The notes under the pieces are model-generated. The model had not been told where the DNA came from and searched no databases. It saw only the letters and a list, made by a program, of their open reading frames with translations. Below, piece by piece: positions 7,096 through 39,201 of a stretch of DNA of 64,000 bases. A program made the translations under genes and the position numbers. Position 1 is the first letter of the stretch; each line of letters begins with the position of its first letter. This DNA comes from Actinomycetota bacterium (GTDB lineage: Bacteria; Actinomycetota; Acidimicrobiia; IMCC26256; JAENVU01), in assembly GCA_016870395.1 (NCBI GenBank), contig VGBT01000001.1:130376-194375 (forward strand), in the 5' to 3' direction.

Positions 7096-7989
7096 TCAGA
7101 CCGTCTCGGGCGTCTTGTCGTCGGCTGCGTCCCTTGCGACGCGCTCTGCCGCCTCGGTCAGCGCGGCGGCTTGGGCTTGGAGATCGCGCTCTCGCCAGTG
7201 CAACCCGAGCAGGAACAGCACGAACAGCGTGCCGGAGCCGAGGAACGCGACCGTCGGCGGTACCCGCATCGAGCCGAGGTCACGCACGTACACCAGGGCG
7301 TCGACCGGCTTGGAGGTGTCGCACTTGGGCGCCGGGATCGGGTCGCCGAACGGGACGATCTGGGCGTCCTTGTCGACCGGGCAGATGAACGCGACCGCGT
7401 ACAGCGGCTCGTGCAGGCTCATGTGGATCCACGGCCAGCCGGCGCCGGTGGACACGTCGACCTGGCTGAAGGTGCTGCCCCCGCCCGTCTCGTACGCGCT
7501 CTTCACGATGTAGTCGGTCGCCGCGGAGTAGATCGCGAACTTGCTCGTGGCGCCGGTCTCCTCGGAGATGGCGCCGGTCTCGGTGGGTGCGACGAGCGCC
7601 GCGTCGACGGCGGCCTTCACGTTGGCCAGCTCAGCTAGGTCGACCTTGTTCGCGGGGGTCTTCGCCGTCTGCACCGGCTCGTACTTGGAGCGGGCGAGGT
7701 CGCCGCCCGAGATCGACTCCAGCGCGACCCACTGGGCGCTCCGGCCCTTCAGCGTGTTGCGCGGGGACGCGGTGGTCATCCACAACAGCGAGAGCAGTAT
7801 CATCAGCCCGGCAAGACCGGCGCCGATGACGAGGAAGCCGAGTCGGGCGCCGAGGTTGGTGGCGAGCAACAGGTACACGGTGCCGCAGAAGAGGGCCACC
7901 GCCGAGATCGGGACGAGCACGCCGAGGATCGTCGGGTACCAGAGGGTGCGCTGGGTCAACTCGCTCGCGAGGATCAGTGCGTTCGGCAA
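7096..7989 (-). CDS. hypothetical multi-pass membrane protein of the cytochrome bc operon
   Basis: 297-aa ORF, two N-terminal TM segments and one C-terminal TM; tightly spaced in the operon; family not recognised. Confidence 0.7.
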   Translation of the reverse strand: MPNALILASELTQRTLWYPTILGVLVPISAVALFCGTVYLLLATNLGARLGFLVIGAGLAGLMILLSLLWMTTASPRNTLKGRSAQWVALESISGGDLARSKYEPVQTAKTPANKVDLAELANVKAAVDAALVAPTETGAISEETGATSKFAIYSAATDYIVKSAYETGGGSTFSQVDVSTGAGWPWIHMSLHEPLYAVAFICPVDKDAQIVPFGDPIPAPKCDTSKPVDALVYVRDLGSMRVPPTVAFLGSGTLFVLFLLGLHWRERDLQAQAAALTEAAERVARDAADDKTPETV

Positions 7990-7998: not shown

Positions 7999-9264
7999 CT
8001 AGAGGTTGCGCTCGTACGTGACGACGGCGTCGATCTGGTCCTGGGTGAAGATCTGGCCGAAGTGAGGCATGCGGCCCGAGGAGATGCCCCGCACCCCGTA
8101 GCCCTTGTTGTTCTCGACGCCTTCGCCGACCCACGCGTACTGCTTCTGGTAGCCGGGGGTCTTCGGATCGTCGGCGGGCTCGCCGGGGAACTGCTCGAGC
8201 ACCGAGCCCCCGGTGAGCGACGGCCCGAAGGCGCCACCTCCCATCGGGCCGGGTAGCGGCACCAGGGCGTTGGTCGGGTCGTTGTACGACCAGCCGTTGG
8301 TGTGGCAGCGGGCGCACTGGGTCATGAACAGCAGCTTGCCCTGGCTCGCGCGGTCGACCTCGGTCTTGAAGGCGCGGGAGCGCACGATCGCCTCCTCGGC
8401 GCGGGCCACCTTGATCTCGGCGGCCGCGCGGGCCGTGACGCTCTCTGCTGCGGCCAGGTCCTCACGAGCCGCGGCCAGGTTCTGTCGGGCGGTCTTCAGC
8501 GCGCTGGCGGCCTGGTCCTGGAGGGCGACGACGTCCTTGCCGACCTGCGCCTTGGCCTGGGCCGGGCTGACCTGGATGCTCTTCAGGTACGCGACGAGGT
8601 CGCTGACCGCCTGCGCGTTCTTCGGACCGCCGCCGGCGATGCCCCAGGCCGGCATCGGCGTTCCGGGCCGCCCGTAGGTGATGATCTGGGTCACCTGCTG
8701 CTCGGCACGCGCGCAGTTGGCGGCTTCCTCGGCCAGCTCCTCGGCGGTGCAGTCGTTGAAGCGGTAGAAGACCGTGTCGAGCGCCGGTGCCGCCCAGCTC
8801 ACCTGCACCGGCCGGGCTTCCGTGTCCCCCTGGGCCTCGGGCGTGATCACGAACGGCGCCGAGCCGCCGGCGGAGTCGGTGCCGTGGCAGGTGGCGCACA
8901 GCAGCGACTTGGCCGCGTCGTACTCGGGCATCTGGTCGTTGGCGTAGAGCGTTGCACCCCGCTCGATCGCCCGCTCCTCAAAGCCCTCGGCCTCCGCGCT
9001 CTGCCGGCCGGGCTCGAGCACCCAGTACAGCGGTAGCACGATCGCCACGATCGAGGAGAACAGCAAGGTCCACCGCAGCACGCGGGTGAGGTGCTCGTTC
9101 TCGAGCGTCTCGTCGTCGTAGAACGGCGTGAGGTTCTGAGGCTCGACCTCTTTCGGCGCGCGCCGCACCGAGAGCACCCGGTACGCCAGCACGCCAGCGA
9201 TCACCAAGACCGCGATGATGTTGACGGTGAAGACGAGCGTCCGGAGGGTGATCGCCAGGGTCAA
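7999..9264 (-). CDS. membrane-anchored di-heme cytochrome c
   Basis: Two CXXCH motifs (CATCH, CARCH), two N-terminal TM segments, next to Rieske and cytochrome b genes. Confidence 0.88.
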   Translation of the reverse strand: MTLAITLRTLVFTVNIIAVLVIAGVLAYRVLSVRRAPKEVEPQNLTPFYDDETLENEHLTRVLRWTLLFSSIVAIVLPLYWVLEPGRQSAEAEGFEERAIERGATLYANDQMPEYDAAKSLLCATCHGTDSAGGSAPFVITPEAQGDTEARPVQVSWAAPALDTVFYRFNDCTAEELAEEAANCARAEQQVTQIITYGRPGTPMPAWGIAGGGPKNAQAVSDLVAYLKSIQVSPAQAKAQVGKDVVALQDQAASALKTARQNLAAAREDLAAAESVTARAAAEIKVARAEEAIVRSRAFKTEVDRASQGKLLFMTQCARCHTNGWSYNDPTNALVPLPGPMGGGAFGPSLTGGSVLEQFPGEPADDPKTPGYQKQYAWVGEGVENNKGYGVRGISSGRMPHFGQIFTQDQIDAVVTYERNL

Positions 9265-9303: not shown

Positions 9304-10152
9304 CTAGCCGACGCAGGGCGGGCCCTCGGCGCCCTGCCCGGTGGTGTCGGTGCCGATGGGGGCGCCCTCGGTCGGCAGGCCGGTGTCGATCGTGAGCTTC
9401 TGGCCGCTGATCTCGACGACGAAGTGGTCGAGGCCACGCGGCGCCGGCCCACCGGTCTTCTCGCCGACGCGGTTGTACTTCGAGCCGTGGCACGGGCACT
9501 CGAACCACTGCGAGCTGGGGCACCAGGGCACCTTGCAGCCCAGGTGCGGGCACTTCTGGTAATGGGCCACGATGCCCTGCTCCATGGCCGGGATCAGCAG
9601 CGTGTACTGGGGGACCTTCCTGGCCTTCGGGACCGCCGAAGTGGGGTAGGGCACCAGGTAGCTACGCGCCTCGGGCACGTAGTAGGGCTCCTTCTTCTCC
9701 TCGTTGTAGGCGAGCACCTCGTCGAGGCCGACGCCGGCGTCGATCTTGCCGCCGAAGCCGCCGGCCGACTTCGCGTAGAGGAAGCTGATGCAAGCGGCGG
9801 CAAGAGCACCGAGGCTCACTGTCATCGTGACGACGATGCCCCGGTTCAGGAACTGCCGGCGGCTGACCTGGATCTCCTCCTCGTCGACGGGCTGACGCTC
9901 AGCGACCCCGGACGGCGCCCGAGTGGCGGGCACCGCGGCCTCGGACGCGGCCTCGTCTGCGTTCCTCGTCGCGGCGCCGGCCGTCACCGCGGTCTTGCCG
10001 GCCTCGGCGTCGCGTTGGCGGGTCTCGGCCGACAGCGTGCCGGTGACGCGGCCCGACGCGTCGGAGGAGGCCCGGCGGCGGCCGGTGGCGAGGACCATCA
10101 CCGCGGCCAGGATTAGCAAAACCGGGATGGCGATGACGAGTGCGGTGGACAC
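9304..10152 (-). CDS. Rieske iron-sulfur protein of quinol-cytochrome c reductase
   Basis: Rieske motifs CPHLGC and CPCHGS; SRRQFLNRG Tat-like motif before the TM anchor. Confidence 0.93.
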   Translation of the reverse strand: MSTALVIAIPVLLILAAVMVLATGRRRASSDASGRVTGTLSAETRQRDAEAGKTAVTAGAATRNADEAASEAAVPATRAPSGVAERQPVDEEEIQVSRRQFLNRGIVVTMTVSLGALAAACISFLYAKSAGGFGGKIDAGVGLDEVLAYNEEKKEPYYVPEARSYLVPYPTSAVPKARKVPQYTLLIPAMEQGIVAHYQKCPHLGCKVPWCPSSQWFECPCHGSKYNRVGEKTGGPAPRGLDHFVVEISGQKLTIDTGLPTEGAPIGTDTTGQGAEGPPCVG

Positions 10153-10159: not shown

Positions 10160-11014
10160 CTAGAGCTCGAAGAAGATGCCGTCGTTCCAGGGGAACACGA
10201 AGTTGAAGCCGGCGCCCCGGAAGAACGAGCCGATGATCACGAGCACCGTCCAGAACATGAGGAAGACCGTGAAGATCGAGATCGCGAACTTCCGATCCTC
10301 GGGCTTGTTCGACGGGTTCTTGTCGACGTACGGGGCGATGATGAGCAGGAACAGGGCCATGCCCGGGATGGTCACACCCGCGATCATCGGGTGGAACATC
10401 GTGAGCAGCTCCTGGAGCCCGAGGAAGTACCAGGGCGCCTTCGAAGGGTTGGGCGTCTGGTTCACGTCGGCGAGCCCGAGCAGCGGGGCGCGCACCAGGG
10501 CCGAGAAGATGAGCAGCATCGCACTCACCGACAGGGTGGCCGCGAGCTCGATCACGAGCAGGTGCGGCCAGGTGTGGACCTTGTCCTGGGCCTCGCCCCG
10601 GACCTGCTGGATCGACCCCGACTTGACCACCGTGAGCAGGCGCTGGGTGTGGCCGCCCGGACCGGTGCCCGACGGAGTGGCGATCGGCGCGGCCTTGACC
10701 GCGGTCGCGGTGCCTCCGCCTCCGACGGATGCGGCCTCTCCGCCCTCCTTCGCGGCCTTGCGGCGGCGTGAGCGCTCGAGCAGGTGCGCGGGGACCCCGC
10801 CCTTCGACTCGGTGATCTCCTCGCCCGCCGCGGCGGCCGGCGTTTGGGACGGCGTCTCGGCGGGCGTCTCCGGCGCCGGCGCCTCCTCGGTTGGCGCCCC
10901 GGCCGAGGCGTCTTCGGTGCCGCCCTCGGCGGCGCCTTCGGTGTCGCCGGACAGCCCGAGCTGCTTGCGCCGCTCGGCGGCACGCCGCTTCAGGTGTTCG
11001 GGAAGTTCGGGCAT
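10160..11014 (-). CDS. cytochrome b C-terminal half (subunit IV/PetD-like) with long N-terminal extension
   Basis: NPSKAPWYFLGLQELLTMFHP and following hydrophobic segments, separate from the N-terminal cytochrome b ORF. Confidence 0.88.
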   Translation of the reverse strand: MPELPEHLKRRAAERRKQLGLSGDTEGAAEGGTEDASAGAPTEEAPAPETPAETPSQTPAAAAGEEITESKGGVPAHLLERSRRRKAAKEGGEAASVGGGGTATAVKAAPIATPSGTGPGGHTQRLLTVVKSGSIQQVRGEAQDKVHTWPHLLVIELAATLSVSAMLLIFSALVRAPLLGLADVNQTPNPSKAPWYFLGLQELLTMFHPMIAGVTIPGMALFLLIIAPYVDKNPSNKPEDRKFAISIFTVFLMFWTVLVIIGSFFRGAGFNFVFPWNDGIFFEL

Positions 11015-11059: not shown

Positions 11060-11857
11060 CTACAGCGGTCCACTGATGCCTCCGTCCTTGCGGACCCTCC
11101 AGAAGTGGACCGCCATGAAGATCACGATCACGAACGGCAGCAGCAGCACGTGCAGCGTGTACCAGCGCAGCAGCGTGTCGCCGCTGATCTCCTTCGAGCC
11201 GAGCAGCGCGTAGCGCACCTGACTGCCGAAGACCGGCGTGTAGCCCATCATGTTGGTGCCGACCGTGACTGCCCACAGCGCGAGCTGGTCCCAGGGGAGC
11301 AGGTATCCGGTGAAGGAGAGCAGCAGCGTCAGCGTGAGCAGGATCACGCCGATCACCCAGTTGAACTCGCGTGGCGCCTTGTAGGCGCCGTGATAGAAGA
11401 CGCGGCTCATGTGCAGGAACACGGTGATCACCATGAGGTGCGCGGCCCACCGGTGCATGTTGCGCACGAGCGAGCCGAACCACACCGCGGTCTCGAGCTG
11501 CTGAACGTTGTTCCACGCGAGCGCCTCGGTCGGCCGGTAGAAGAACATCAGGAAGATGCCGGTGACAGTGAGCAGGATGAACAGGAAGAACGACAGCCCG
11601 CCGAGGCAGAGCGTGTAGCTCACCTTCACCGCGTGCCGCTTCACCTTCACCGGGTGGAGGTGGTACAGCACGCTGTTCATGATCACGTACGAGCGGTTTC
11701 GCGGGCTGTCGGTGTAGCCGCGCCGAAAGATGGATCCCGGGCGAAAGATCGACGTCAGCACCTGCGAGCTGCCGAGCTGGTCGCCGAGCGCCTTCGAGCG
11801 CTCGCGCAACTTCGTTCCGAGCCCCCCGCTCCCGTTGCTCCCGTTGCCGTTGGCCAC
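11060..11857 (-). CDS. cytochrome b N-terminal half (cytochrome b6-like)
   Basis: YTLCLGG...FFYRPTEA, NMHRWAAHLMVITVFLH, GYLLPWDQLALWAV, LHVLLLPFVIVIFMAVH, C-terminal GGISGPL. Confidence 0.94.
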   Translation of the reverse strand: MANGNGSNGSGGLGTKLRERSKALGDQLGSSQVLTSIFRPGSIFRRGYTDSPRNRSYVIMNSVLYHLHPVKVKRHAVKVSYTLCLGGLSFFLFILLTVTGIFLMFFYRPTEALAWNNVQQLETAVWFGSLVRNMHRWAAHLMVITVFLHMSRVFYHGAYKAPREFNWVIGVILLTLTLLLSFTGYLLPWDQLALWAVTVGTNMMGYTPVFGSQVRYALLGSKEISGDTLLRWYTLHVLLLPFVIVIFMAVHFWRVRKDGGISGPL

Positions 11858-11915: not shown

Positions 11916-12329
11916 CTAGAACCTCACGCCGTACGCGTATCCGTTGCGCGGTGTACGGGTGTGCGGATCGCCCGCCGCACCTTGCGCCGTCACCTTGCCG
12001 AGGACGATCACACCGGTCGGGCACCGGTCGACGCAGAGCGCGCAGCGCGTGCACACGTCCTCGTCCACGATGAACGCCACGTGGTCGCGGGGGTCCTCGC
12101 CCGGGCGGTCGGTCCCGACGGCCTCGGTGATGGCCGAGACCGAGACCATGTGGATGCACTTCCACGGGCAGATGTCGACGCAGCCCTCGCACATGATGCA
12201 CTCGGCCTGGTCGATGTGGAGGAACTGCTTCGGCTTGACGGCCTGGGTCAAGAAGCCCGGGTCGACCTCGGCGAGCACGTAGTCGGTGGCGAACTCCGGC
12301 ATCGTCGGGTTCGCGTCGGTGCGGGCCAC
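11916..12329 (-). CDS. 2x[4Fe-4S] ferredoxin-type protein
   Basis: CIMCEGCVDICPWKC and CTRCALCVDRCPTGV. Confidence 0.9.
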   Translation of the reverse strand: MARTDANPTMPEFATDYVLAEVDPGFLTQAVKPKQFLHIDQAECIMCEGCVDICPWKCIHMVSVSAITEAVGTDRPGEDPRDHVAFIVDEDVCTRCALCVDRCPTGVIVLGKVTAQGAAGDPHTRTPRNGYAYGVRF

Positions 12330-12333: not shown

Positions 12334-12834
12334 CTACGCCTTCGCCCTCAGTGGCCGGCCGAAGGGCGACCGGCCGACCTTCACCGGCGCGGCGGTCTCG
12401 AGCTCGCTCGCGGTCTTGCGCTTCTGCCACAGCACGATGAACGCGATGTTCGCCGCGAAGAACACGAGGTAGATCCCGACTACCAGCAGGTCGCGCACCC
12501 CGTGCTGCAGGTCGATGGAGAACGGCCAGTTCCACGACTTCATCACCGGGATCGCGGTGGTCGACTTGATGATGAACCGGTTGGTCGACAGGCCCCAGTA
12601 CTTGTCGGACGCGGTGATGAACTCGTGCGGGATCACCGCGTAGGCGAGCAGCATCATGGTGAACGTGTAGACCGCCCCGGCCATGGCCTGGGCCCAGGTG
12701 GTGGGCTGTTCAGGCTTCGGGCGTCGCAACAGGACCACGAGCGGGATGGTCATCACGATCAGCAGCAGGGTCGCCCAGATGAGGCGGCCGTTAGGTCGGA
12801 GGAACGGTAGCCAGTCCGGTAGCAGGTTAAGCAT
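12334..12834 (-). CDS. hypothetical membrane protein, first gene of the bc operon
   Basis: 166-aa ORF with about 3 TM segments, 4 bp from the ferredoxin gene; no family recognised. Confidence 0.65.
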   Translation of the reverse strand: MLNLLPDWLPFLRPNGRLIWATLLLIVMTIPLVVLLRRPKPEQPTTWAQAMAGAVYTFTMMLLAYAVIPHEFITASDKYWGLSTNRFIIKSTTAIPVMKSWNWPFSIDLQHGVRDLLVVGIYLVFFAANIAFIVLWQKRKTASELETAAPVKVGRSPFGRPLRAKA

Positions 12835-15550: not shown

Positions 15551-16339
15551 CTAACCCCTCCAGGCCCTGAAGGGCCGGGCGAGGTGATAGGCGAGGCGGG
15601 CCCGGTGATGGCCCGGCCCCATGCACAAGCGCGGGATGGCGAACGGGTCCGTGCCGGGGACGACCCGGCCGAAGCTGAACGTGAACGCCGCGCGGTACCC
15701 GGCCTCCCGCGCGGCTGCCCGTGTCGGCGCGTCGTGGTGGCCGAAGGGGTATGCGAGCAGGTCCACGTGCCGCCCGGTGATCTCCTCGAGGCGTTCGCGC
15801 GATTCGAGCAGCTCGCGCGACCGGACCGCGGCGGTGACGTCGGGGAGCGACGCATGGGTGGTGGTGTGGGATCCGACCGTCAGGCCGGCTTCCACCAGGG
15901 ATCGGAGCTCCGTGGGGGCGAGGGTCGGCGCGGCGCCGGGCCAGAAGTCGGGCTCGCGTCCGAGCACGCCGGCGACCGCGAAGACGGTGGCGGGCACGTC
16001 GAGCGCTCGGAGCACCTCGAGCGCCTGTCCGAGCACGCCGGCGAGGGCGTCGTCGAAGGTGACGGCGACCAGTCCGTCGAGCGCGGCGCCGGTCTCTAGC
16101 CGGGTGACGATCTCGTCGAGTGCCGTGAAGCGCAGGCCCCAGCCGGCGATCGCCTCGAGCTGGTCCCGGAACCGGCTCGGCGAGAGGTAGTACTCGGTGT
16201 GGTTGGACGGGTCGGTGCCGACGTCGTGGTAGCAGAGCACGGCCGCGCCGAGCCCCTGGGTCGGGAGGTCACGTCCGAGCAGCGAGCATCCCGCGCCGAG
16301 CAGTCCGAGGCGCTTGGACCACAGGGCCTCGACGTCCAC
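15551..16339 (-). CDS. polysaccharide deacetylase family protein
   Basis: VLCYHDVG, VAVTFDDALAGVL, VGSHTTTHASLPD, LLAYPFGHHD. Confidence 0.88.
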   Translation of the reverse strand: MDVEALWSKRLGLLGAGCSLLGRDLPTQGLGAAVLCYHDVGTDPSNHTEYYLSPSRFRDQLEAIAGWGLRFTALDEIVTRLETGAALDGLVAVTFDDALAGVLGQALEVLRALDVPATVFAVAGVLGREPDFWPGAAPTLAPTELRSLVEAGLTVGSHTTTHASLPDVTAAVRSRELLESRERLEEITGRHVDLLAYPFGHHDAPTRAAAREAGYRAAFTFSFGRVVPGTDPFAIPRLCMGPGHHRARLAYHLARPFRAWRG

Positions 16340-16435
16340 CCACGCGAGCGTACCGGTGCGTGCTTTGCGTGCCCGCGGAGCACGCGCGGTAGCGTGGTGG
16401 CCGAGCGCTTTTGGAGCACACGAGAGGGGAGCGAG

Positions 16436-16897
16436 GTGATCCAGTACCTGCCGATCCTGGCGATGATCGTGCTGGTGATCCTGTTCGTCGCCGTCTCGTT
16501 CGCCGCCTCGCTCCTGCTCACCACCAAGCGGCCGACGCGTGCGAAGACCGCGCCGTACGAGTGCGGGATCGTCCCCGAGGAGGAGCCGGCCGAGCGCTTC
16601 CCGGTGCGCTTCTACCTCGTCGCGATGGCGTTCATCGTTCTCGACGTCGAGATCATCTTCCTGTACCCGTTCGCGACGGTCTTCGAGGACCTCGGCGGCT
16701 ACGGGCTCGCGGTCATGGGCGTGTTCCTCCTCGTGCTGCTGGTTCCGTTCGGCTACCTGCTCTCGGTCGGCGCGCTCGACTGGGGCCCGGCCCGACAGGT
16801 CGCCGACCGCCTCGTCCGCCCGGTGCTGCGCGCGGCGGGACTGCCGTCCGGTGTTGCGGAGCGTCCTTCACGCGCATCCGAGACCGAAGCGGCGTAA
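16436..16897 (+). CDS. nuoA: NADH-quinone oxidoreductase subunit A (copy 1)
   Basis: KTAPYECGIVPEEEPAERFPVRFYLVAMAFIVLDVEIIFLYPFA; GTG start in frame. Confidence 0.93.
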   Translation: MIQYLPILAMIVLVILFVAVSFAASLLLTTKRPTRAKTAPYECGIVPEEEPAERFPVRFYLVAMAFIVLDVEIIFLYPFATVFEDLGGYGLAVMGVFLLVLLVPFGYLLSVGALDWGPARQVADRLVRPVLRAAGLPSGVAERPSRASETEAA

Positions 16898-16903
16898 CTC
16901 CTC

Positions 16904-17467
16904 ATGCCGCTCGACGCGATCCCCTACAACTTCCTCACCGGCCGCCTCGAGGACGTGGTCCGGTGGGCGCGACGCAACAGCGTCTTCCCCGCGACCTTCG
17001 GCCTGGCCTGCTGCGCGCTGGAGATGATGGCCACCGGCGCCGCGCACTACGACCTCGCGCGCTACGGCATGGAGATCTTCCGCGCGAGCCCGCGTCAGGC
17101 CGACCTCATGTTCGTCGCCGGGCGGGTCTCCCAGAAGATGGCCCCGGTGCTGCGCCAGGTCTACGACCAGATGGTCGAGCCCAAGTGGGTGATCTCGATG
17201 GGCGTGTGCGCGAGCAGCGGCGGGATGTTCAACAACTACGCGATCGTGCAGGGCGTCGACCAGATCGTCCCGGTCGACGTGTACGTTCCGGGCTGCCCGC
17301 CCGGACCCGAGACGCTGATGCACGGGATCCTCGCCTTGCACGAGCAGATCCGCACCGGTGAGCTCCTGAAGCGCCGGCAGGCGTCTCCCACCGGCGGCGC
17401 CGGCATCGAGATCGCTCAGCGCGACGGCGCGCCTGCGCCGTCGCTCACCGCGAGCACGCGAGCCTGA
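16904..17467 (+). CDS. nuoB: NADH-quinone oxidoreductase subunit B (copy 1)
   Basis: [35 protein letters not shown]. Confidence 0.96.
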
Positions 17468-17473
17468 GCCCCG

Positions 17474-18070
17474 ATGTCGGATCCGACCCCCGCGCCCGCC
17501 GACGACGCTCGTGAAGACGTTCACGAGCCCGGTGCCGCGCCTGCGCCCTGGGACGAGGTCGCCGCGGCGCTCGTCGCGGCCTTCGAGGGCGCCGTGTTCC
17601 ACGACAGCCACGGGCAGCCGGTCGTCTACGTCGCTCCCGCGCGGCTGGCCCACGTCGCGACCTTCCTGCGCGACGAGCAGCAGTTCACGACCTGCCTCGA
17701 CGTGACCGCGGTCGACCACCTCCTCGACGGCGAGCGCCTCGTGGTCGCGGGGGTGGAGCCCGAGCGCTTCGAGGTCGTCGCCAACTTCCTCTCGCATCTG
17801 CGCAACCGCCGCATCCGCGTGATCGCCGAGGTCCCGGCGGCCGACCCCACGGTCCCGAGCCTCACCCCGATCTACCCCGGCGTGAGCTACGCCGAGCGCG
17901 AGGTGTACGACCTGCTCGGCATCGTCTTCGAAGGCCACCCCGACCTCACGCGCATCCTCATGCCCGACGACTGGTCCGGCCACCCGCTGCGCAAGGACGA
18001 CGCGCCCGCGCGCGTTCCCGTCACGTTCAAGGGCGACCCCGGCCCGAGAGTCGGGAGGGTCGCGGAGTGA
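17474..18070 (+). CDS. nuoC: NADH-quinone oxidoreductase subunit C (copy 1)
   Basis: YPGVSYAEREVYDLLGIVFEGHPDLTRILMPDDWSGHPLRKD. Confidence 0.94.
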   Translation: MSDPTPAPADDAREDVHEPGAAPAPWDEVAAALVAAFEGAVFHDSHGQPVVYVAPARLAHVATFLRDEQQFTTCLDVTAVDHLLDGERLVVAGVEPERFEVVANFLSHLRNRRIRVIAEVPAADPTVPSLTPIYPGVSYAEREVYDLLGIVFEGHPDLTRILMPDDWSGHPLRKDDAPARVPVTFKGDPGPRVGRVAE

Positions 18071-18077
18071 GCACGAG

Positions 18078-19370
18078 ATGAGCGACGTGTGGGAGGAGGT
18101 CGAGCGGCTCGGTCGTCAGACCGACGAGGGCGCGCAGGAGCTGCGCCCACGTTCCGAGCTCGTCGTCACCGGTGGCCCCTGGCCCGAGGGCGAGGGCGAG
18201 GGCGAGGGCGAGACCATGATCATCAACATGGGGCCCCAGCACCCGTCCACCCACGGGGTGCTGCGCGTGATGATGGAGCTCGACGGTGAGACGGTGGTGC
18301 GGGCGAAGCCGGTCATCGGTTACCTCCACACCGGCATGGAGAAGACGGCCGAGCAGCTCACCTACGTGCAGGGCAGCACCAACGTCACCCGCATGGACTA
18401 CGCGTCGCCGATCGCGAACGAGCTCGTGTTCTCGACGGCCGTCGAGCGGCTGCTCGACGTCGAGGTCCCGCCGCGCGCCGTCTGGGCGCGCATGCTCCTT
18501 GCCGAGCTGAGCCGCATGGCGAGCCACCTCCTGTTCCAGGCCAGCAACGGCATGGACATCGGCGCGGTGTCGATGATGCTCTACGGCTGGCGTGAACGTG
18601 AGGAGACGCTGCGGGTCCTGGAGATGATCACGGGACTGCGCATGAACCACAACTTCGTGCGCCCCGGTGGCATCGCGGCCGACCTGCCCGACGGCTGGCA
18701 GCGCGCGGTGCTCGAGCTCTGCGAGATCGTCGAGCGCGGCATCGACGACTACGACACGTTGCTCACCTCGAACCCGATCTGGGTCGAGCGCACCGTCGGA
18801 GTGGGGGTCATCACCACGGAGCAGGCGTTGGCGCTCGGGATCTCCGGACCGATCCTGCGCTCCACGGGATTCCCGTGGGACCTGCGCAAGGCCCAGCCGT
18901 ACCTCGCGTACGACCAGGTCGACTTCGACGTGATCTACACGGAGAACGGCGACTGCTTCGACCGCTATCGCATCCGGCTCGGCGAGATCGCGGAGTCGAT
19001 CAAGATCGTTCGCCAGTGCGTGGACATGATGCCCGCCGGCGACTACCGGACCCAGGACAAGAAGGTCACCCCGCCGCCGCGTGCTCGTATCAATGAGTCG
19101 ATGGAAGCGCTGATCCACCACTTCAAGCTCTTCACCGAGGGCTTCCGTGTCCCGGCCGGCGAGACCTACGTGTCGGTCGAGTCGCCGCGTGGTGAGATCG
19201 GCTGCTACCTCGTCTCCGACGGGACGGGCAAGCCGGTGCGGATGCACATCCGCGGACCGTCGTTCTACAACCTCCAGTCGATGGAGCCGATGATGGAAGG
19301 CCGCCTCGTGGCCGACGCCGTCGCGGTGATCTCGAGTGTCGACCCGATCCTCGGAGAGGTGGATCGGTGA
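18078..19370 (+). CDS. nuoD: NADH-quinone oxidoreductase subunit D (copy 1)
   Basis: INMGPQHPSTHGVLRVMMELDGE, C-terminal SVDPILGEVDR. Confidence 0.96.
   Translation: MSDVWEEVERLGRQTDEGAQELRPRSELVVTGGPWPEGEGEGEGETMIINMGPQHPSTHGVLRVMMELDGETVVRAKPVIGYLHTGMEKTAEQLTYVQGSTNVTRMDYASPIANELVFSTAVERLLDVEVPPRAVWARMLLAELSRMASHLLFQASNGMDIGAVSMMLYGWREREETLRVLEMITGLRMNHNFVRPGGIAADLPDGWQRAVLELCEIVERGIDDYDTLLTSNPIWVERTVGVGVITTEQALALGISGPILRSTGFPWDLRKAQPYLAYDQVDFDVIYTENGDCFDRYRIRLGEIAESIKIVRQCVDMMPAGDYRTQDKKVTPPPRARINESMEALIHHFKLFTEGFRVPAGETYVSVESPRGEIGCYLVSDGTGKPVRMHIRGPSFYNLQSMEPMMEGRLVADAVAVISSVDPILGEVDR
18186..18209 (+). repeat. four tandem copies of GAGGGC inside nuoD copy 1
   Basis: Direct reading; encodes (Glu-Gly)4. 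Confidence 0.9.
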
Positions 19371-19855
19371 TGTTCACGCCCGAGAACCTCGAGCGCGCCC
19401 GCGCGATCGTGGCCCGCTACCCGCGGGCCAAGTCCGCGATCCTGCCGCTCGCGCACCTCGCCCAGGACCAGGACGGCTGGCTCTCGCCCGAGGCGATGCG
19501 CGAGATCGCGGCGCTCACGAGAGTCGAGCCGGCCGAGGTGCTCGGCACCTGCAGCTTCTACACGATGTTCAAGCGCGATCCGGTCGGCCGGCTCGTGGTG
19601 TCGGTGTGCACGAACGTCACGTGCCTCGTCACCGGCGGGCCCGAGGTTCTCGAGCACCTCGCCCGGCGCTACGACGACGACGACGTGTATGTCGAGGAGG
19701 TCGAGTGCCTCGCGGCGTGCGGGGGTGCGCCTGCGATGCAGGTGAACTACGAGTTCCACGAGGGTCTCACGCCCGAGATGGCGGAGGAGATCGTCGAGGC
19801 CTACAAGCGGGGTGAGCTCATCCCGCGCGGCGTGAGCGGAGGCCGGGTGTCGTGA
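19367..19855 (+). CDS. nuoE: NADH-quinone oxidoreductase subunit E
   Basis: [2Fe-2S] thioredoxin-like: CTNVTC...ECLAACGGAPAMQVN; GTG 19367 or ATG 19370. Confidence 0.94.
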   Translation: MMFTPENLERARAIVARYPRAKSAILPLAHLAQDQDGWLSPEAMREIAALTRVEPAEVLGTCSFYTMFKRDPVGRLVVSVCTNVTCLVTGGPEVLEHLARRYDDDDVYVEEVECLAACGGAPAMQVNYEFHEGLTPEMAEEIVEAYKRGELIPRGVSGGRVS

Positions 19856-21180
19856 CCGTCACCGAGACCCGCGTCATCACGAAGCGGATCCACGACCGTC
19901 CGGAGGACAGCTGGACGATCGACGGCGCGCTCGCGTCCGGCGCGTACGAGGGCTTGCGCGCGGCGTTCGCCATGGGGCGTGACGCGATCGGCGAGGAGCA
20001 GGTGAAGGCGTCCGGTCTGCGTGGCCGGGGCGGCGCCGGGTTTCCCACCGCGACGAAGTGGTCGTTCCTCCCGGCGGGTTCGTACCCGCGCTACCTCGTC
20101 GTCAACGCCGACGAGGGTGAGCCGTCCACCTTCAAGGACCGCATGCTCATCGAGCGTGACCCGCACCAGCTCATCGAGGGGATCGCGATCGCCGCGTTCG
20201 CGATCGAGTGCAACCTCGCGTTCGTCTACATCCGCGGCGAGTTCGCGCTCGGCTACGAGCGCCTGGAGCAGGCGGTGGCGGAGGCGAAGGCGAAGGGCTT
20301 CCTCGGCATGAACATCCTCGGCTCGGGCTTCGACCTCGACATCGTCGTGCACCGCGGCGCGGGCGCCTACATCTGCGGCGAGGAGACGGCGTTGCTCGAG
20401 AGCCTGGAGGGCGAGCGCGGCATGCCGCGCATCCGCCCGCCGTTCCCAGCGATCGAGGGGCTCTACGCGAAGCCGACCGTGGTGAACAACGTCGAGACGA
20501 TCTCCACGCTCCCACACATCGTGCGTATGGGCGGGGAGGAGTACGCGAAGCTCGGGGTCGACCGCTCGACCGGCACGCGCGTCTTCTCGCTCTCCGGTCA
20601 CGTCAAGCGTCCGGGCAACTACGAGGTCGAGCTGGGCGTCACCTTCCGCGACCTCCTGTACTCGCCGGAGCTCGGTGGCGGCATCACCGACGACCGCAAG
20701 GTGAAGTTCTTCATCCCCGGGGGCGCGTCGAGCCAGTGGCTCACCGGCGCCGACGAGCACCTCGACGCCCCGCTCGACATGGACTTCTTGGAGCAGAACC
20801 TCGGCGTGATGCTGGGCTCCGGCGCGGTGATGGTCTTCGACGAGACTGTCAACCCGGCGCTCGTGGCCTGGCGCCTCGCGAAGTTCTTCGCGGACGAGTC
20901 GTGCGGCAAGTGCACGCCGTGCCGGGAGGGAACCGGCTGGGTCGAGAAGGTGCTGTACCGGATCGCGCACGGCCAGGGTCGGCCACAAGACTTCGACATG
21001 CTGCTCGACGTGTGCGACAACATCTCGCCGGGCGTCACCACCGCCCCGTTCGCCCAGACGACGATCTGCCCGCTCGGGCCGTCGGTGGTCAGCCCGGTCG
21101 CGAGCCTCCAGAAGTACTTCCGCGACGAGGTCCTCGCGATGTGCACCGGTCCGTCGACGATCCCCGTGAGCGCGTCATGA
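19852..21180 (+). CDS. nuoF: NADH-quinone oxidoreductase subunit F
   Basis: GLRGRGGAGFPTATKWSF, VNADEGEPSTFKDR, ESCGKCTPCREGT. Confidence 0.96.
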   Translation: MTVTETRVITKRIHDRPEDSWTIDGALASGAYEGLRAAFAMGRDAIGEEQVKASGLRGRGGAGFPTATKWSFLPAGSYPRYLVVNADEGEPSTFKDRMLIERDPHQLIEGIAIAAFAIECNLAFVYIRGEFALGYERLEQAVAEAKAKGFLGMNILGSGFDLDIVVHRGAGAYICGEETALLESLEGERGMPRIRPPFPAIEGLYAKPTVVNNVETISTLPHIVRMGGEEYAKLGVDRSTGTRVFSLSGHVKRPGNYEVELGVTFRDLLYSPELGGGITDDRKVKFFIPGGASSQWLTGADEHLDAPLDMDFLEQNLGVMLGSGAVMVFDETVNPALVAWRLAKFFADESCGKCTPCREGTGWVEKVLYRIAHGQGRPQDFDMLLDVCDNISPGVTTAPFAQTTICPLGPSVVSPVASLQKYFRDEVLAMCTGPSTIPVSAS

Positions 21181-23777
21181 ACCTGGTGAGCGTCACGATC
21201 GACGGGCGCGAGGTGCAGGTGCCCGCCGGCGAGTTGCTGATCAAGGTCGCGCAGGAGCACGGCACCTACATCCCGCGCTTCTGCTGGCACGAGCGGATGA
21301 AGCCGGTGGGGATGTGCCGGATGTGTTTGGTCGAGGTCGAGGGCGTGCGGGGGCTTCCGCCGGCGTGCACCACCCCGGTCACCGATGGCATGGTCGTGCG
21401 CACCAAGACGCCGGCGGTGAAGAAGGTGCAGGACGGCGTCCTCGAGCTCCTGCTCGTGAACCACCCGCTCGACTGCCCGGTGTGCGACCGCGGCGGCGAG
21501 TGCCCGCTCCAGGACACCACGCTCGCGTTCGGTCCGGGAGAGTCTCGCTTCGTCGAGGAGAAGCGGCACTGGGAGAAGCCGATCCCGGTGTCCGACCTCG
21601 TGCTGCTCGACCGCGAGCGCTGCATCCAGTGTGCGCGTTGCACACGCTTCGCCGACGAGATCGCGGGTGATCCGCTGATCTCGTTCGGGGAGCGTGGTGG
21701 CCAAACGGAGATCATCACCTTCCCCGACGAGCCGTTCGCGTCGTACTTCTCGGGCAACACGGTCCAGATCTGCCCCGTCGGCGCGCTCACCGCGAAGCCG
21801 TATCGCTTCAGGGCGCGCCCGTGGGACCTCACCGGGGCCGAGACGTCGTGCGTCACCTGCGCGGTCCACTGCCGGGGCGCGCTCGAGTCCACCAGCAACC
21901 AGCTGGTGCGGCTCCTCGGCGTCGACAGTGAGCCGGTCAACCAGGGGTGGCTGTGTGACAAGGGCCGCTACGGGTACGAGGCGGTCAACGCCGACGAGCG
22001 CGTGCGCCACCCGATGATCCGCAAGCGCGGCGAGCTGGTGGAGTGCTCGTGGCCGGAGGCGCTCGACGCGGCAGCCGACGGGATCCAGCGGGCGCTCGAC
22101 CTCAACGGGCCGCAGTCGGTGGCGTTGCTCGGCGGTGCCAACGGCACCAACGAAGAGGCCTACGCCTGGGCCCGCCTCGCCAAGAGCGTGCTGCGCACCG
22201 ACAACGTCGACGCGCAGCTCGGCGACGGGCTGCCCGCCGAGGTCGTGCTGGGTCTCCCCCGCGCGCTCATCGCCGACCTCGACCGGGCGCGCGGCATCGT
22301 GCTGCTGGGCCCCGACCTCAAAGAGGAGCTCCCGGTCCTCTACCTGCGCATGCGGCGCGCCGCGGTGGAGCTCGGCGTCCCGCTGATCGAGATCGCACCT
22401 CGCGACACGGGCTGCTCGCGCTACGCCTCGGCCCGGCTCCGGCCCGTGCCCGGAGAGCAGGCCGGCATCGCGCGCCGGCTCGCCGCCGCCGTCGGTGGTG
22501 CACCCAGCGGCGACGCCGACATCGACGAAGCCGCCGTGCTCCTCGCGGGCAGGGACGGCGACGTCGTGGTGGTTCTCGGCCGCGGCGACCTGGCCGAGTC
22601 GGCCGCCACCACCGTTGCCGCGGCCGCGGAGCTCGGCGCTCTGCCCGGCGCGAAGTTCCTCGTCGCGCTCCGTCGGGCCAACGTCCGCGGCGCGCTCGAC
22701 CTCGGCCTGGCTCCCGGGTTCCTGCCCGGTCGGGTCACGCTGGCCGAGGGAGGCGACCACTTCGCGCAAGCCTGGGGTGGGGTCCCCGCGGCCCCGGGCC
22801 TCGGTGCGCTCGGGATCCTCGGGGCCGCGTCCGAGGGGCGCATCCACGCCCTCGTCCTAGCCGGGAGCGACCCCGTCGGTGGGTGCCCGGACCGCTCGCT
22901 CGCGCGTAACGCGATCGCGGCAGCCGGCTTCGTGATCGCGGTCGACACGTTCGTGACCGAGAGCAACAAGCGCGCCGACGTGTTCCTCCCCGTCACGATG
23001 TGGGGCGAGGAGTCCGGCACGGTCACCAACGTCGAAGGGCGCGTGCAGCGGGTCGCGCAGAAGGTCTCGCCCGAGGGCATCGCGATGCCCGAGTGGCGCA
23101 TCGCGGCGGAGCTCGCACTGCGGCTGGGGGTCGACTTCGGTTTCGAGGCGGTCGAGGAGGTCACCGACGAGATCGCCCGGGTGGCTCCCGCGCACGCGGG
23201 CGTCGACACCACGCTCCTGCGTCGGGCGCGCGATGGAGTCGTGCTGCCCGTCGCCGAACACCCCGACGAGCTCCACTTCGGTCGCGCCGGCGTGGGGCTG
23301 GCGGGGGCCTCGTGGGACCCGATCCTGCCGACACCAGCGGAAGTGGTGGCCGACGCCCCGGTCGAGCCGGTCGAGCCGGTCGAGCGGCAGATGCCCGCGC
23401 TGCACGTGTGGTCGCGCGAGGTGCCGGACGGGTCGGCGTCGGCGCCGGCGCGTGACGCCTACGCTCTGCGGCTCGTGAGCGGGCGCACCCTCTACGACGG
23501 CGGCATCACCGTGACACTTTCGCCGTCGATGGCGCAGCTTGCACCGCGGGCCGTGCTGCTCGTGAACCCGCACGACCGCGATCGCATCGGGGTGAGCGAC
23601 GGCGACGAGGTGCGGGTCACGTCTGCCCGCACGAGCATGAACCTCGTACTGCGCGGCGACGCGGCCACGTCCGCAGGCTGCGCGTTCCTGCCCTTCAACC
23701 TGCCCGGTCCGGGTGCGTCCGACCTGATCGACGCCTCGGCGCCGGTGACCGACCTGCGCGTGGAGTCGATCCGATGA
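21177..23777 (+). CDS. nuoG: NADH-quinone oxidoreductase subunit G
   Basis: [2Fe-2S] CWHERMKPVGMCRMCLVEVEG, CPVCDRGGECPLQ, CIQCARCTRF, and N7-type CVTCAVHC-X27-C; ATG at 21177 in frame with the longer ORF. Confidence 0.95.
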   Translation: MNLVSVTIDGREVQVPAGELLIKVAQEHGTYIPRFCWHERMKPVGMCRMCLVEVEGVRGLPPACTTPVTDGMVVRTKTPAVKKVQDGVLELLLVNHPLDCPVCDRGGECPLQDTTLAFGPGESRFVEEKRHWEKPIPVSDLVLLDRERCIQCARCTRFADEIAGDPLISFGERGGQTEIITFPDEPFASYFSGNTVQICPVGALTAKPYRFRARPWDLTGAETSCVTCAVHCRGALESTSNQLVRLLGVDSEPVNQGWLCDKGRYGYEAVNADERVRHPMIRKRGELVECSWPEALDAAADGIQRALDLNGPQSVALLGGANGTNEEAYAWARLAKSVLRTDNVDAQLGDGLPAEVVLGLPRALIADLDRARGIVLLGPDLKEELPVLYLRMRRAAVELGVPLIEIAPRDTGCSRYASARLRPVPGEQAGIARRLAAAVGGAPSGDADIDEAAVLLAGRDGDVVVVLGRGDLAESAATTVAAAAELGALPGAKFLVALRRANVRGALDLGLAPGFLPGRVTLAEGGDHFAQAWGGVPAAPGLGALGILGAASEGRIHALVLAGSDPVGGCPDRSLARNAIAAAGFVIAVDTFVTESNKRADVFLPVTMWGEESGTVTNVEGRVQRVAQKVSPEGIAMPEWRIAAELALRLGVDFGFEAVEEVTDEIARVAPAHAGVDTTLLRRARDGVVLPVAEHPDELHFGRAGVGLAGASWDPILPTPAEVVADAPVEPVEPVERQMPALHVWSREVPDGSASAPARDAYALRLVSGRTLYDGGITVTLSPSMAQLAPRAVLLVNPHDRDRIGVSDGDEVRVTSARTSMNLVLRGDAATSAGCAFLPFNLPGPGASDLIDASAPVTDLRVESIR

Positions 23778-24982
23778 GGCTCCTGGCCGCGGGCGATCCG
23801 CTGTTCGCGGACGGGCTCGATTTCGGCATCGTGCTGATCGTGATCGTGAAGACGGTCGTGACCTTTGCGCTGCTGCTGGTGCTTGTCCTCTTCTACATCT
23901 GGTTCATGCGCAAGGTCATCGCCGACATGCAGAACCGGATCGGCCCCGCACGCGCGGGCGGTCGGTTCGGGATCCTGCAGACTCTGGCCGACGGCATCAA
24001 GCTGTTCTTCAAGGAGCAGTCGGTGCCGGACAGCGCAGACCCCTTCGTCTTCCGGCTCGCGCCCTACCTGTCGATCATCCCGGCGTTCCTCGCGTTCTCG
24101 ATCATCCCCATCGGCGGCGAGGTCTCGATGTTCGGTCACGAGACCTACCTGCAGCTCGCCGACCCCGAGATCGGCGTGCTGTTCCTGCTCGCGATGTCGG
24201 GCATCGGTCTCTACGGCGTGATGCTCGCGGGGTGGGCGAGTGGGTCGAAGTACCCGCTGCTGGGCTCGGTGCGGGCGTCCGCGCAGATGCTCTCGTACGA
24301 GGCCGCCTTCGGGCTGGCCGTCGTCGCCGTGCTCCTCCACGCGGGCACGCTCTCTACCCGCGGCATCGTGAACGCCCAGGCGTGGACGAGCTGGGACAGC
24401 TTCGCGACGAGCTGGTACTGGACGGTCGCCGTCGTTTCGTTCGCGATCTTTTTGGTCGCAGCGATCGCGGAGACGAATCACCCGCCCTTCGACTTGGTCG
24501 AGGCCGAGCAGGAGCTCGTGGGCGGCTTCGTCACCGAGTACACGGGCATGCGGTTCGCAATCTTCTTCCTGGCCGAGTTCATGAACCTGATCACGATGTC
24601 GGCGATCGCGGTCACGCTCTTCCTCGGCGGGCCGTCGGGTCCCGCGCTCGGCTTCCTTCCCGCGGACGGCACCGTGAACGTCTGGCTCATGCCGGTGTTC
24701 TGGTTCTTCGCCAAGCTCCTCTTCCTCCTTTTCTGCACGGTGTGGGTGCGCGCCTCCCTGCCGCGACTGCGCTACGACCAGCTCATGGACCTCGGGTGGA
24801 AGTGGCTCATCGAGCTCGCGTTCCTCGCCGTGATGGTGACGGCAGTGGTGCTGGTCGGGCGCGACGAGGGATGGAACCGCTGGGTCGTGGTCCCGGCCTC
24901 GATCGCAGGTGCCGTCGCGGTGCTGGGCGCTCTCCGGCTCTGCATGCCGAAGCGTTCGGAGCTCGTGGAAGAGGAGGCGTAG
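23774..24982 (+). CDS. nuoH: NADH-quinone oxidoreductase subunit H (copy 1)
   Basis: MQNRIGPARAGGRFGILQTLADGIKLFFKE; ETNHPPFDLVEAEQELVGGFVTEYTGMRF. Confidence 0.96.
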   Translation: MRLLAAGDPLFADGLDFGIVLIVIVKTVVTFALLLVLVLFYIWFMRKVIADMQNRIGPARAGGRFGILQTLADGIKLFFKEQSVPDSADPFVFRLAPYLSIIPAFLAFSIIPIGGEVSMFGHETYLQLADPEIGVLFLLAMSGIGLYGVMLAGWASGSKYPLLGSVRASAQMLSYEAAFGLAVVAVLLHAGTLSTRGIVNAQAWTSWDSFATSWYWTVAVVSFAIFLVAAIAETNHPPFDLVEAEQELVGGFVTEYTGMRFAIFFLAEFMNLITMSAIAVTLFLGGPSGPALGFLPADGTVNVWLMPVFWFFAKLLFLLFCTVWVRASLPRLRYDQLMDLGWKWLIELAFLAVMVTAVVLVGRDEGWNRWVVVPASIAGAVAVLGALRLCMPKRSELVEEEA

Positions 24983-25048
24983 GTGCCCACTCTTCGCGAT
25001 CGTCCGCGCGTCGGGCACCTGAGCCGACCAATGAGGGAGGAGGCGTAG
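24983..25048 (+). other. 22-codon mini-ORF (GTG...GCGTAG) between nuoH and nuoI copy 1; spacer bounded by 15-bp direct repeats
   Basis: GAGGAGGCGTAGGTG at 24971-24985 and 25037-25051 (66-bp period); in-frame translation (M/V)PTLRDRPRVGHLSRPMREEA*. Confidence 0.5.
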
Positions 25049-25684
25049 GTGGGTCTTTTCCAAGGCTTCGGCGTGACGTTGAAGCAGATGTTCAAGCCGC
25101 GCCTCACCACGCCCTACCCGGATGCCAAGCGGCCAAAGCCGCCGCGCTTCCACGGGCGCCACGTGCTCAACCGCTACGACGACGGCATGGAGAAGTGCAT
25201 CGGCTGCGAGCTCTGCGCCGGCGTCTGCCCGGCGCGCTGCATCTACGTGCGTGGCGCCGACAACCCACCGGACGCGCCCGTCTCGCCCGGTGAACGCTAC
25301 GGCTTCGTCTACGAGATCAACTACCTGCGCTGCATCCACTGTGACATGTGCGTCGAGGCATGCCCGACCGAGGCGATCACCGAGACGAAGCTCTTCGAGT
25401 TCTCGTTCACCAACCGCGAGGACGCGATCTACACCAAGACCGAGTTGCTCGTCGACGACGACGGTCGGGCGCGCCGCCAGCCCTGGGAGTTCTGGATGGG
25501 CGACGAGGACGACCATACGAGCGCCTGGATGCGCGCCACCGCACCGTCGGGCGCCGTGGGCTACGAGGACCGGGTCGTCTGGTCGGAGGAGCTTGGGTTC
25601 GGCTACCGCGATCCCGAACGTGGTCAGCACACCGCGGCCGATGCCGAGGACCACACCACGAACGACGCCGAGGATGCCTCGTGA
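25049..25684 (+). CDS. nuoI: NADH-quinone oxidoreductase subunit I (copy 1)
   Basis: [15 protein letters not shown] and [16 protein letters not shown]. Confidence 0.95.
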
Positions 25685-26247
25685 GCGAGGTCGTGATCTT
25701 CTTCCTGATGGCCGCGCTCGCCCTCGGCGCCGCGCTGGGTGTCGTGCTCGCGAAGAACCCGGTGCACAGCGCGTTGCTCCTGGTCACCGTCCTGGTTGCG
25801 ATCGCGGTGCTGTTTGTCGTGCAGGACGCGCAGCTCCTCGCTGCTGTGCAGGTGATCGTCTACGCCGGCGCGATCGTCGTGCTGTTCCTGTTCGTGATCA
25901 TGTTGCTCGGTGTCGACGAGCAAGAGAGTCTGTCGGACCCCGTGCGGATCCAGCGGCCCGCCGCGATCCTGCTCGGCGTGATCGCCCTCGCGGAGGTGCT
26001 GTTCCTCACCGGGCACCACTGGGCCACCGGAGCGGAGAAGGCCCGCGGTGCGCTCGACGACGGTTCCGGCGGCAACGTCGAGCGGGTCGCCCGTAGCCTC
26101 TTCACCGAGTTCCTCTGGCCCTTCGAGGTGACTGCCGTCCTGTTGGTCGCCGCGGTGATCGGCAGTGTGGTGCTCGCGCGGCGCAGTAACCGGCCCACCA
26201 CCGACGACGTCGACGAGTCGAGTGGCGAGAAGGTCTCGGCGCCGTGA
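25681..26247 (+). CDS. nuoJ: NADH-quinone oxidoreductase subunit J (copy 1)
   Basis: [54 protein letters not shown] start at 25681. Confidence 0.94.
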
Positions 26248-26552
26248 AGCTCACCGACACCTACTTCCTCACCTTCGCCGCGCTTCTCTTCACGATCGGT
26301 GCGGTCGGCCTGCTGGTCCGTCGCAACGTGCTCGTGATGTTCATGTGCGTCGAGCTGATGCTCAACGCCGTCAACGTCACGTTCGTTGCCTTCTCGAAGA
26401 CGTTGAACGACATCAGCGGGCAGGCGATCGTGTTCTTCGTTCTCGTCGTGGCCGCAGCCGAGGTCGCGGTCGGCCTCGCGATCATCGTTGCCATCTTCCG
26501 GCGGCGGCGCAGCGGTGTCACCGCCGACGACATCGACCTCCTGAAGGGCTGA
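26244..26552 (+). CDS. nuoK: NADH-quinone oxidoreductase subunit K (copy 1)
   Basis: [21 protein letters not shown]...[18 protein letters not shown]. Confidence 0.95.
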
Positions 26553-26565
26553 GGCTCCACCGATC

Positions 26566-28695: not shown

Positions 28696-30296
28696 ACGAC
28701 CTCGGATTTCCGATCCTCACCGCATTGATCGGCACCCCGATCGTCGGGGCGCTGCTCGTGCTGTGCACGCCGTCGAGTCGCCCGGAGATGGCGCGTGCGG
28801 TGGGCTACATGGCCAGCGCGGCCACGCTCGGCCTGGCGGCCTGGCTGCTCTGGGAATTCGACACCGCCTTCGGCGGCTTCCAGTTCGTCGAGGCGAACCG
28901 CTGGTTCGACGCGCTGGGCGTCGGCTACATCGTCGGGGTCGACGGGTTCAGCATCTTCATGGTCGCCGTGACCGCGCTGCTCTTTCCGATCGGACTGCTC
29001 GCGTCCTCCACGATCGAGCATCGGGTCAAGGCCTACACGTTCTGGTTCCTCCTGCTCGAGGGCGCGATCTTGGGGATCTTCCTGTCCTTGGATCTCATCG
29101 CCTTCTTCGTCTTCTGGGAAGCGATGCTCGTCCCGATGTACTTCCTCATCGCGGGCTGGGGCAGCGCGAACCGCGTGTACGCGTCGATGAAGTTCTTCAT
29201 CTACACCGCGGCCGGCTCGGCCTTCCTGTTGGCGTCGATCCTGGTCCTGGGCTTCCTGCACCAGGCCGACACGGGCAACCTCACGTTCGACTACCGGGTC
29301 CTGGTCGCATGGAACGGCCTCGCCGGGAGCACGGCCGCGTGGCTCTTTCTCGGTTTCATGGCCGCGTTCGCGATCAAGGCGCCGCTCTTCCCGTTTCACA
29401 CCTGGCTGCCCGACGTGCACACCGAGGCGCCCACTGCCGGGTCCGTGGTGCTGGCAGGTGTGATCCTGAAGATGGGTGCGTACGGCTTCATGCGCTTCAG
29501 CTTCGAGTTGTTCCCGCAGGCGTCAGTCGACTTCGCCCCCCTGATCCTCACACTGGCCGTGATCGGGATTGTCTACGGGTCGGTGGTCGCAGCGATGCAG
29601 CGCGACGCAAAGCGGGTGATCGCGTTCTCGTCGGTCGCGCACATGGGCTTCATCCTGCTCGGGATCTTCTCGATCACGGTCTTCGGGCTCGACGGCGCCA
29701 CGTTCACTATGATCAGCCACCCGCTCACCACGGGCGCGCTGTTCCTGGTGATCGGGATGCTCTACGAGCGTCGGCACACGCGCCAGATCGACGCGTTCGG
29801 TGGCATCTGGCGCTCCGCCCCCGTTCTCACCGGGTTCTTTCTCGCGGCGATGTTCGCCGGCATCGGCGTTCCCGGCTTCTCCGGCTTCATCGGTGAGTTC
29901 CTCTCCGTGCTGGGGGCGTTCGTCTCCCATCGTTGGTGGGCGGTGGTCGCGACCACCGGTGTGGTCCTGGCGGCGGTGTACATGCTCTGGATGTTCCAAC
30001 GGGTGTTCACCGGCAAGGCCGAAGGCGAGAACGTCACCGTGGCCGACGTCACGATCCGCGAGGTGGTCGTCGTCGCGCCGCTCCTGTTGCTCAGCCTGTT
30101 CATCGGCCTGTTCCCGCAGCCGGTGCTCGACCGCATCGAGCCGACGGCCAAGCGCGTGGTCGCCAACTTCGAGCGCAAGACCGACTACGTGCGCCCCGGA
30201 CCCGATCGCATCCCCACCAAGGCAGAGCGCGAAGCAGAGCGCGAAGCAGAGGCTGAGGCCGAGCACGACGGCGAGACCACGGAGCCGACCAAGTGA
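28692..30296 (+). CDS. nuoM: NADH-quinone oxidoreductase subunit M (copy 1)
   Basis: FWEAMLVPMYFLIAGWG, PLFPFHTWLPDVHTEAPTAGSVVLAGVILKMGAYG. Confidence 0.96.
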   Translation: MNDLGFPILTALIGTPIVGALLVLCTPSSRPEMARAVGYMASAATLGLAAWLLWEFDTAFGGFQFVEANRWFDALGVGYIVGVDGFSIFMVAVTALLFPIGLLASSTIEHRVKAYTFWFLLLEGAILGIFLSLDLIAFFVFWEAMLVPMYFLIAGWGSANRVYASMKFFIYTAAGSAFLLASILVLGFLHQADTGNLTFDYRVLVAWNGLAGSTAAWLFLGFMAAFAIKAPLFPFHTWLPDVHTEAPTAGSVVLAGVILKMGAYGFMRFSFELFPQASVDFAPLILTLAVIGIVYGSVVAAMQRDAKRVIAFSSVAHMGFILLGIFSITVFGLDGATFTMISHPLTTGALFLVIGMLYERRHTRQIDAFGGIWRSAPVLTGFFLAAMFAGIGVPGFSGFIGEFLSVLGAFVSHRWWAVVATTGVVLAAVYMLWMFQRVFTGKAEGENVTVADVTIREVVVVAPLLLLSLFIGLFPQPVLDRIEPTAKRVVANFERKTDYVRPGPDRIPTKAEREAEREAEAEAEHDGETTEPTK

Positions 30297-31804: not shown

Positions 31805-31861
31805 TGCGCTCAACGATGCTCCACGGGTGCTCTGAACTGCACGAATGGCCCCGCCCGCGGG

Positions 31862-31890
31862 TTGCTGCTGCGAGAAAGGGCCGGTATATG
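31862..31890 (+). promoter_or_regulatory. candidate sigma70-like promoter for the second nuo operon
   Basis: TTGCTG (31862-31867), 17-nt spacer, TATATG (31885-31890), about 40 bp before nuoA copy 2; unverified. Confidence 0.35.
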
Positions 31891-31928
31891 CTCGCCCGGT
31901 TCCAGGGTGCCGGGGTGGAGAGACGCGC

Positions 31929-37109: not shown

Positions 37110-37112
37110 ACG

Positions 37113-39188: not shown

Positions 39189-39201
39189 GAGAACTCAGGC
39201 G

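Follow-up and report, generated by a model that had tools for sequence, protein, structure and literature searches.

The known systems closest to the one described here are the Rieske/cytochrome b complexes of anammox bacteria and cytochrome b6f. In Kuenenia, two such complexes (Kuste4569-4574 and Kustd1480-1485) include a NAD(P)-reductase with four Fe-S clusters and FAD, which has been modelled on the n-side, and electron exchange with NAD(P) has been proposed for the anammox complexes (PMC12954380). For cytochrome b6f, which shares in ferredoxin/FNR-linked cyclic electron flow, ferredoxin is the suggested n-side donor and heme c_n the point of entry (PMC9342900). A third related system is ExtOPQ of Geobacter, whose ext cluster encodes no ferredoxin but a rhodanese, a porin and multiheme cytochromes (PMC5877670). 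Here we consider a stretch of 64,000 nucleotides from an actinobacterium of the order IMCC26256 (the window), in which a separate 2x[4Fe-4S] ferredoxin is encoded within the operon of a b6f-like complex. The order includes Actinobacteria bacterium IMCC26256 and several Acidimicrobiia MAGs.

All genes of the bc operon lie on the reverse strand. They encode, in order, a 166-aa membrane protein (12334..12834), the ferredoxin (11916..12329), a cytochrome b6-like subunit of 265 aa (11060..11857), a protein resembling subunit IV, the C-terminal part of cytochrome b (10160..11014), a Rieske protein (9304..10152), a membrane-anchored cytochrome c in which profile matches identify two c-type domains (7999..9264), a 297-aa membrane protein that has no Pfam family and is conserved at the operon end (7096..7989) and a small protein of 82 aa that is conserved in the order IMCC26256 (6839..7087). 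The division of cytochrome b is that of the b6f type, in which a short cytochrome b of four helices is paired with a separate subunit IV, here with the Cytochrome_B domain on the 265-aa protein and Cytochrom_B_C on a separate one, and the Rieske protein carries the [2Fe-2S] motifs CPHLGC...CPCHGSKY, including the Ser and Tyr (CPCHGSxY) of high-potential Rieske proteins. The first gene of the operon (12834..12334), separated by 4 bp from that of the ferredoxin, encodes a conserved upstream partner with three long predicted helices, an S-x-GRP motif at the C-terminus and no Pfam family, and a fold search of the PDB with this protein returned no match. We refer to the window's kind of complex, with the ferredoxin as a separate gene, as type A, and to a sister complex with a fused ferredoxin domain as type B.

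The genome to which the window belongs (2.98 Mb) contains a single b6-type bc complex, one COX1 and, where a contig ends, part of a menD gene (198 bits), so that an aerobic respiratory chain of the menaquinone type is likely; no match to PF02621, of the futalosine pathway, was found.

The window complex resembles the anammox complexes in its b6-like cytochrome b with a subunit IV-like protein, in a heme c_N with a Glu ligand, in a probable n-side Fe-S chain and in the high-potential Rieske Ser in menaquinone-type organisms. It differs in that its 2x[4Fe-4S] ferredoxin stands alone: the subunit with FAD/NAD(P) domains and Fe-S clusters is absent from the window operon and is found in the sister type B clusters. 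Furthermore, the anammox complexes work with multiheme cytochromes, whereas the window encodes a diheme cytochrome c and its host is likely an aerobe. With cytochrome b6f, the window complex shares the b6 and subunit IV division and the heme c_n cysteine, C84 of the b6-like subunit, but there is no photosystem, and the two-domain cytochrome c takes the place of cytochrome f. Plant-type ferredoxin is a 2Fe-2S protein; that of the window is predicted to bind two [4Fe-4S] clusters and is operon-encoded. As for Geobacter, the window b6 scores above the cut-off of the ExtP model (NF040969; 307 versus 290 bits), but subunit IV is far under that of ExtQ (54 versus 150) and the operon has no ext neighbours, so membership of the ExtP selenite/tellurite operon was rejected. 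In the open literature we found no description of a ferredoxin-bc operon in actinobacteria, although a mention in the subscription literature is possible.

The ferredoxin gene starts with GTG and encodes 137 aa, in which two Fer4 domains are found above the cut-off by Pfam profile search. As the first-pass annotation had noticed, both cysteine motifs are intact; they read CxxCxxCxxxCP. The first comprises C44, C47, C50 and C54 (12168..12200, reverse strand) and is followed by PWKC, the second comprises C93, C96, C99 and C103 (12021..12053, same strand), and none of the eight cluster cysteines varies when 13 or 28 homologues are aligned. Among full-length ferredoxins, identity is 72-88% within the order IMCC26256 and 55-65% for other families of the class. 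Searching the PDB by sequence retrieved only generic polyferredoxin and NuoI-type relatives, and the AF2 model (mean pLDDT 48) was too poor for use. The two-cluster layout is that of NuoI and other 8Fe ferredoxins, and NuoI is the top NCBIfam model, but at 41.5 bits the score is far under the NuoI cut-off (113 bits) and the identity of about 33-40% is confined to the core.

Synteny was counted by tblastn and not from gene calls, since codon-biased calling overlooked the ferredoxin gene where GC content was lower. Using full-length ferredoxins situated away from a contig edge, which gave 157 loci in three sets with some genomes represented in more than one, we found a b6 gene directly downstream in 153 (49, 77 and 27 in the respective sets), with a median gap of 60-83 bp. 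The four exceptions are three stand-alone second copies (L039, L040 and L102, of which the last two represent a single gene copy retrieved twice from one genome) and one locus, L182, in which the b6 gene is cut by the contig end. The adjacency of ferredoxin and b6, which had first been noticed in the window, thus recurs across the phylum and was seen in all sampled families that have the ferredoxin; together with the identity of 72-88% across the order, this shows that neither the gene nor its arrangement is due to chance. Among 297 Actinomycetota genomes, 96 encode the ferredoxin and 100 a type A b6; 93 have both, three the ferredoxin only and seven the b6 only (Fisher p about 3e-64, a value that treats related genomes as independent and is indicative only). 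The ferredoxin is a real and deeply conserved partner of a b6f-like respiratory complex.

Some matches to the ferredoxin lie inside long reading frames. These encode GltD-like FAD/NAD(P) proteins, with Fer4_20 and Pyr_redox_2 domains, that end in a Fer4 dicluster domain homologous to the ferredoxin and are encoded directly upstream of a paralogous b6(-IV)-Rieske-cytochrome c cluster, the type B complex. Fusions were found at L207, L217-L223 and L225-L233, to which L243-L245 were added through their b6; the 17 loci L217-L233 had been chosen because a ferredoxin-like domain lay within a long frame or where its contig ends, and all carry the fusion apart from L224, where a type A cluster is found, from the genome whose type B part is L225. 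Twenty type B loci entered the trees. In the ferredoxin tree, built from few columns, the domains of the two types fall into separate groups (93/88 for type A, 61/81 for type B), and in the b6 tree type B is a clade (100/99) that nests with type A in a joint clade excluding other b6 (100/100). Both trees separate the same two types, even in genomes that hold both, which argues for co-inheritance of the ferredoxin domain and its b6. Type B shares the FAD/NAD(P) module with the anammox complexes but has lost the heme c_n ligands. The type B b6 is without the heme c_n cysteine, and in Acidimicrobiia b6 and subunit IV are often fused.

C84 is invariant in the type A b6, including the members without ferredoxin, and is replaced by Arg in type B. 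Likewise, subunit IV carries a WPHLLxxE motif in all 27 ferredoxin-bearing type A loci in which the motif was found, and by hand alignment its Glu corresponds to the position of spinach Phe40, i.e. to the second axial ligand of heme c_n, where type B has a His. These kept ligands suggest that type A has a working Q_N site, and they support the analogy with b6f that had been drawn from the window sequence. A third position, H66, lies in the conserved N-terminal extension of b6 and is kept in types A and B; other b6 proteins have R, E, Y or W there in four of five cases and H in one (L251). H66 may be taken as a lead towards a ligand of an extra b-type heme like that proposed in Kuenenia, which would be bound at the dimer interface by a pair of N-terminal His (His43/His62 there). 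The Rieske proteins of type A complexes with ferredoxin have SY in 45 of 46 matches and SF in the remaining one, so that all possess the high-potential Ser, and the other b6-type bc complexes of the phylum have Gly at this position (three matches only).

We propose, with a probability of roughly two in three, that the ferredoxin is a dedicated cytoplasmic-side electron-transfer partner of a menaquinol:cytochrome c reductase that is b6f-like and contains heme c_n. The sequences show directly how the genes are ordered, conserved and found together, that the fused Fe-S domain is homologous, and that the heme c_n ligands are kept; from these we infer that the protein docks, which path the electrons take and how the parts lie in the membrane. 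The ferredoxin would be a loosely bound subunit or docking shuttle of the only bc complex found in the host, and would dock on the n-side (cytoplasmic) surface of b6/subunit IV, near heme c_n, probably with the help of the 166-aa membrane protein; the sister fusion to a NAD(P)H/FAD module and the anammox-like architecture make this face the most likely one. Electrons would be exchanged between a cytoplasmic low-potential pool and the n-side cofactors, first heme c_n, perhaps together with an extra heme at H66, and next heme b_N or the Q_N site. This suggests that, in a large and for the most part uncultured group of actinobacteria, low-potential electrons of the cytoplasm join or exit the respiratory chain at the bc complex itself. 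If so, complex III would be a junction of the ferredoxin and quinone pools in much of the Actinomycetota (96 of the 297 sampled genomes carry the ferredoxin), and such a junction would exist beyond photosynthesis and anammox. It would also offer a non-photosynthetic and partly cultivable system in which to study the entry of electrons from ferredoxin into b6f-type complexes at heme c_n, with the ferredoxin-less and NAD(P)H-fused natural versions as ready comparisons.

Two directions are candidates: ferredoxin may reduce quinone, in the manner of the cyclic flow around b6f, or quinol may reduce ferredoxin by bifurcation. By a symmetry argument, a high-potential Rieske protein together with a menaquinone pool would allow a low-potential heme b branch (PMC12954380), and the Rieske residues found here, with menaquinone as the pool quinone, make bifurcation to ferredoxin thinkable. 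One electron of menaquinol would then go through the high-potential Rieske protein and cytochrome c to oxygen, the other through the b hemes and the n-side cofactors to ferredoxin; the 11-subunit complex I of the window could return the ferredoxin electrons to the quinone pool, as a respiratory analogue of cyclic flow, and NAD(P)H would be the corresponding product of the type B complex. That the complex is such a quinol-based bifurcating enzyme, reducing ferredoxin in an aerobe, is a speculative proposal and on balance an unlikely one. It is weakened by the fact that ferredoxin-less type A complexes carry the same high-potential Rieske residues and that the presence of heme c_n ligands points to a functional Q_N site.

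Dedicated partnership with the bc complex has to be weighed against the view that this is a housekeeping soluble ferredoxin, serving 2-oxoacid:ferredoxin oxidoreductases, P450s or other soluble enzymes, and that co-transcription only balances expression. Its distribution lends this view some support, as the ferredoxin has been lost in some genomes while the bc complex stayed. Six genomes keep the upstream membrane gene and b6 without it (G009, G116, G176, G187, G209 and G230), with no remnant at the operon and no copy elsewhere genome-wide, and the b6 tree implies at least three losses (ferredoxin-less type A operons L236-L240 and L253). The ferredoxin is consequently accessory and not needed for the core complex, and these six clean absences reject a fixed essential subunit.

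Moreover, eight genomes of four families (f4, f9, f10 and f17) have a near-identical stand-alone second copy in a conserved neighbourhood, with lgt, ABC transporter and FtsX-like genes on one side and an Fpg/Nei-like gene on the other (named by eye from sequence). The two copies of a genome are 0-4 bases apart over most compared stretches (9 in G022) and in most pairs their similarity ends at the start and stop codons, while between genomes the copies differ by 14-20%, a pattern that fits a single ancient duplication whose products have stayed similar through gene conversion (concerted evolution). The second copy suggests that a source of ferredoxin other than the bc operon has been selected for, which would favour a docking shuttle over a rigidly bound subunit, and the ferredoxin may have other clients too. 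The second-copy loci are L039, L040/L102, L047-L050, L052-L055, L071 and L077, and their contigs often break inside the gene.

POR-type enzymes are also present in 57 of 61 relatives, the genome of the window included, but three well-assembled genomes that are 92-97% complete (G016, G018 and G027) keep the ferredoxin and the bc operon with no POR_N match, and POR enzymes were therefore rejected as the obligate electron source. The synteny with b6 over the whole phylum sample, the sister complex, whose b6 gene is directly preceded by that of a flavoprotein fused to the homologous domain, and the presence of another, different small ferredoxin-like protein in the window's own genome further argue against a purely housekeeping role, which we consider improbable.

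It has also to be considered that the ferredoxin is the electron input of a complex I lacking the NADH module, and that its location in the bc operon is incidental. An 11-gene operon without nuoEFG (nuoA, B, C, D, H, I, J, K, L, M and N; about 31845..42177, forward strand) is indeed present as had been stated, but the complex I operon that lies nearest has the full set of 14 genes, nuoA-N (about 16199..31804, forward strand), with nuoE (at 19367), nuoF (at 19852) and nuoG. Enzymes of 11 subunits are discussed as ferredoxin-linked (PMC11238625). Nearly every genome of the order has both the ferredoxin and the 11-gene operon, and across the phylum ferredoxin and nuoD2 occur together in 84 genomes (Fisher p about 4e-37, likewise indicative only). 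This association is loose and much less tight than that with b6: 12 genomes, four of which have a completeness of 90% or more, carry the ferredoxin without a nuoD2 match, and 26 have nuoD2 without such a ferredoxin, including large genomes (7-10 Mb) of family f48. In addition, the ferredoxin was never inside a nuo operon in any locus read. The first-pass annotation had proposed that the ferredoxin links a low-potential pool to either complex; synteny, co-occurrence, fusion and co-inheritance with b6 sustain the part that concerns the bc complex, whereas the link to complex I is weak by co-occurrence and was set aside, so that we regard this second explanation as quite improbable. Finally, an assembly or structural subunit whose clusters carry no current in turnover and help to assemble or regulate the complex would agree with the dispensability of the ferredoxin in some lineages, but the invariance of all eight cluster cysteines and the electron wire that is formed in the sister complex, where the domain is joined to a full FAD/NAD(P) module and additional cluster-binding domains, make it very improbable indeed.

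Further observations were made in the course of this analysis. The 14-gene and 11-gene complex I operons stand in tandem (16199-42177), and both are found in nearly all genomes of the order. A geranylgeranyl-reductase family gene (12906-14282), divergent from the bc operon, adjoins it across the order, and the best NCBIfam match of its product is MenJ, with 304 bits against a cut-off of 700. Three loci (L082, L101 and L151) come from MAG records that are titled Bifidobacterium breve and carry an acidimicrobiian ferredoxin; these titles look mislabelled.
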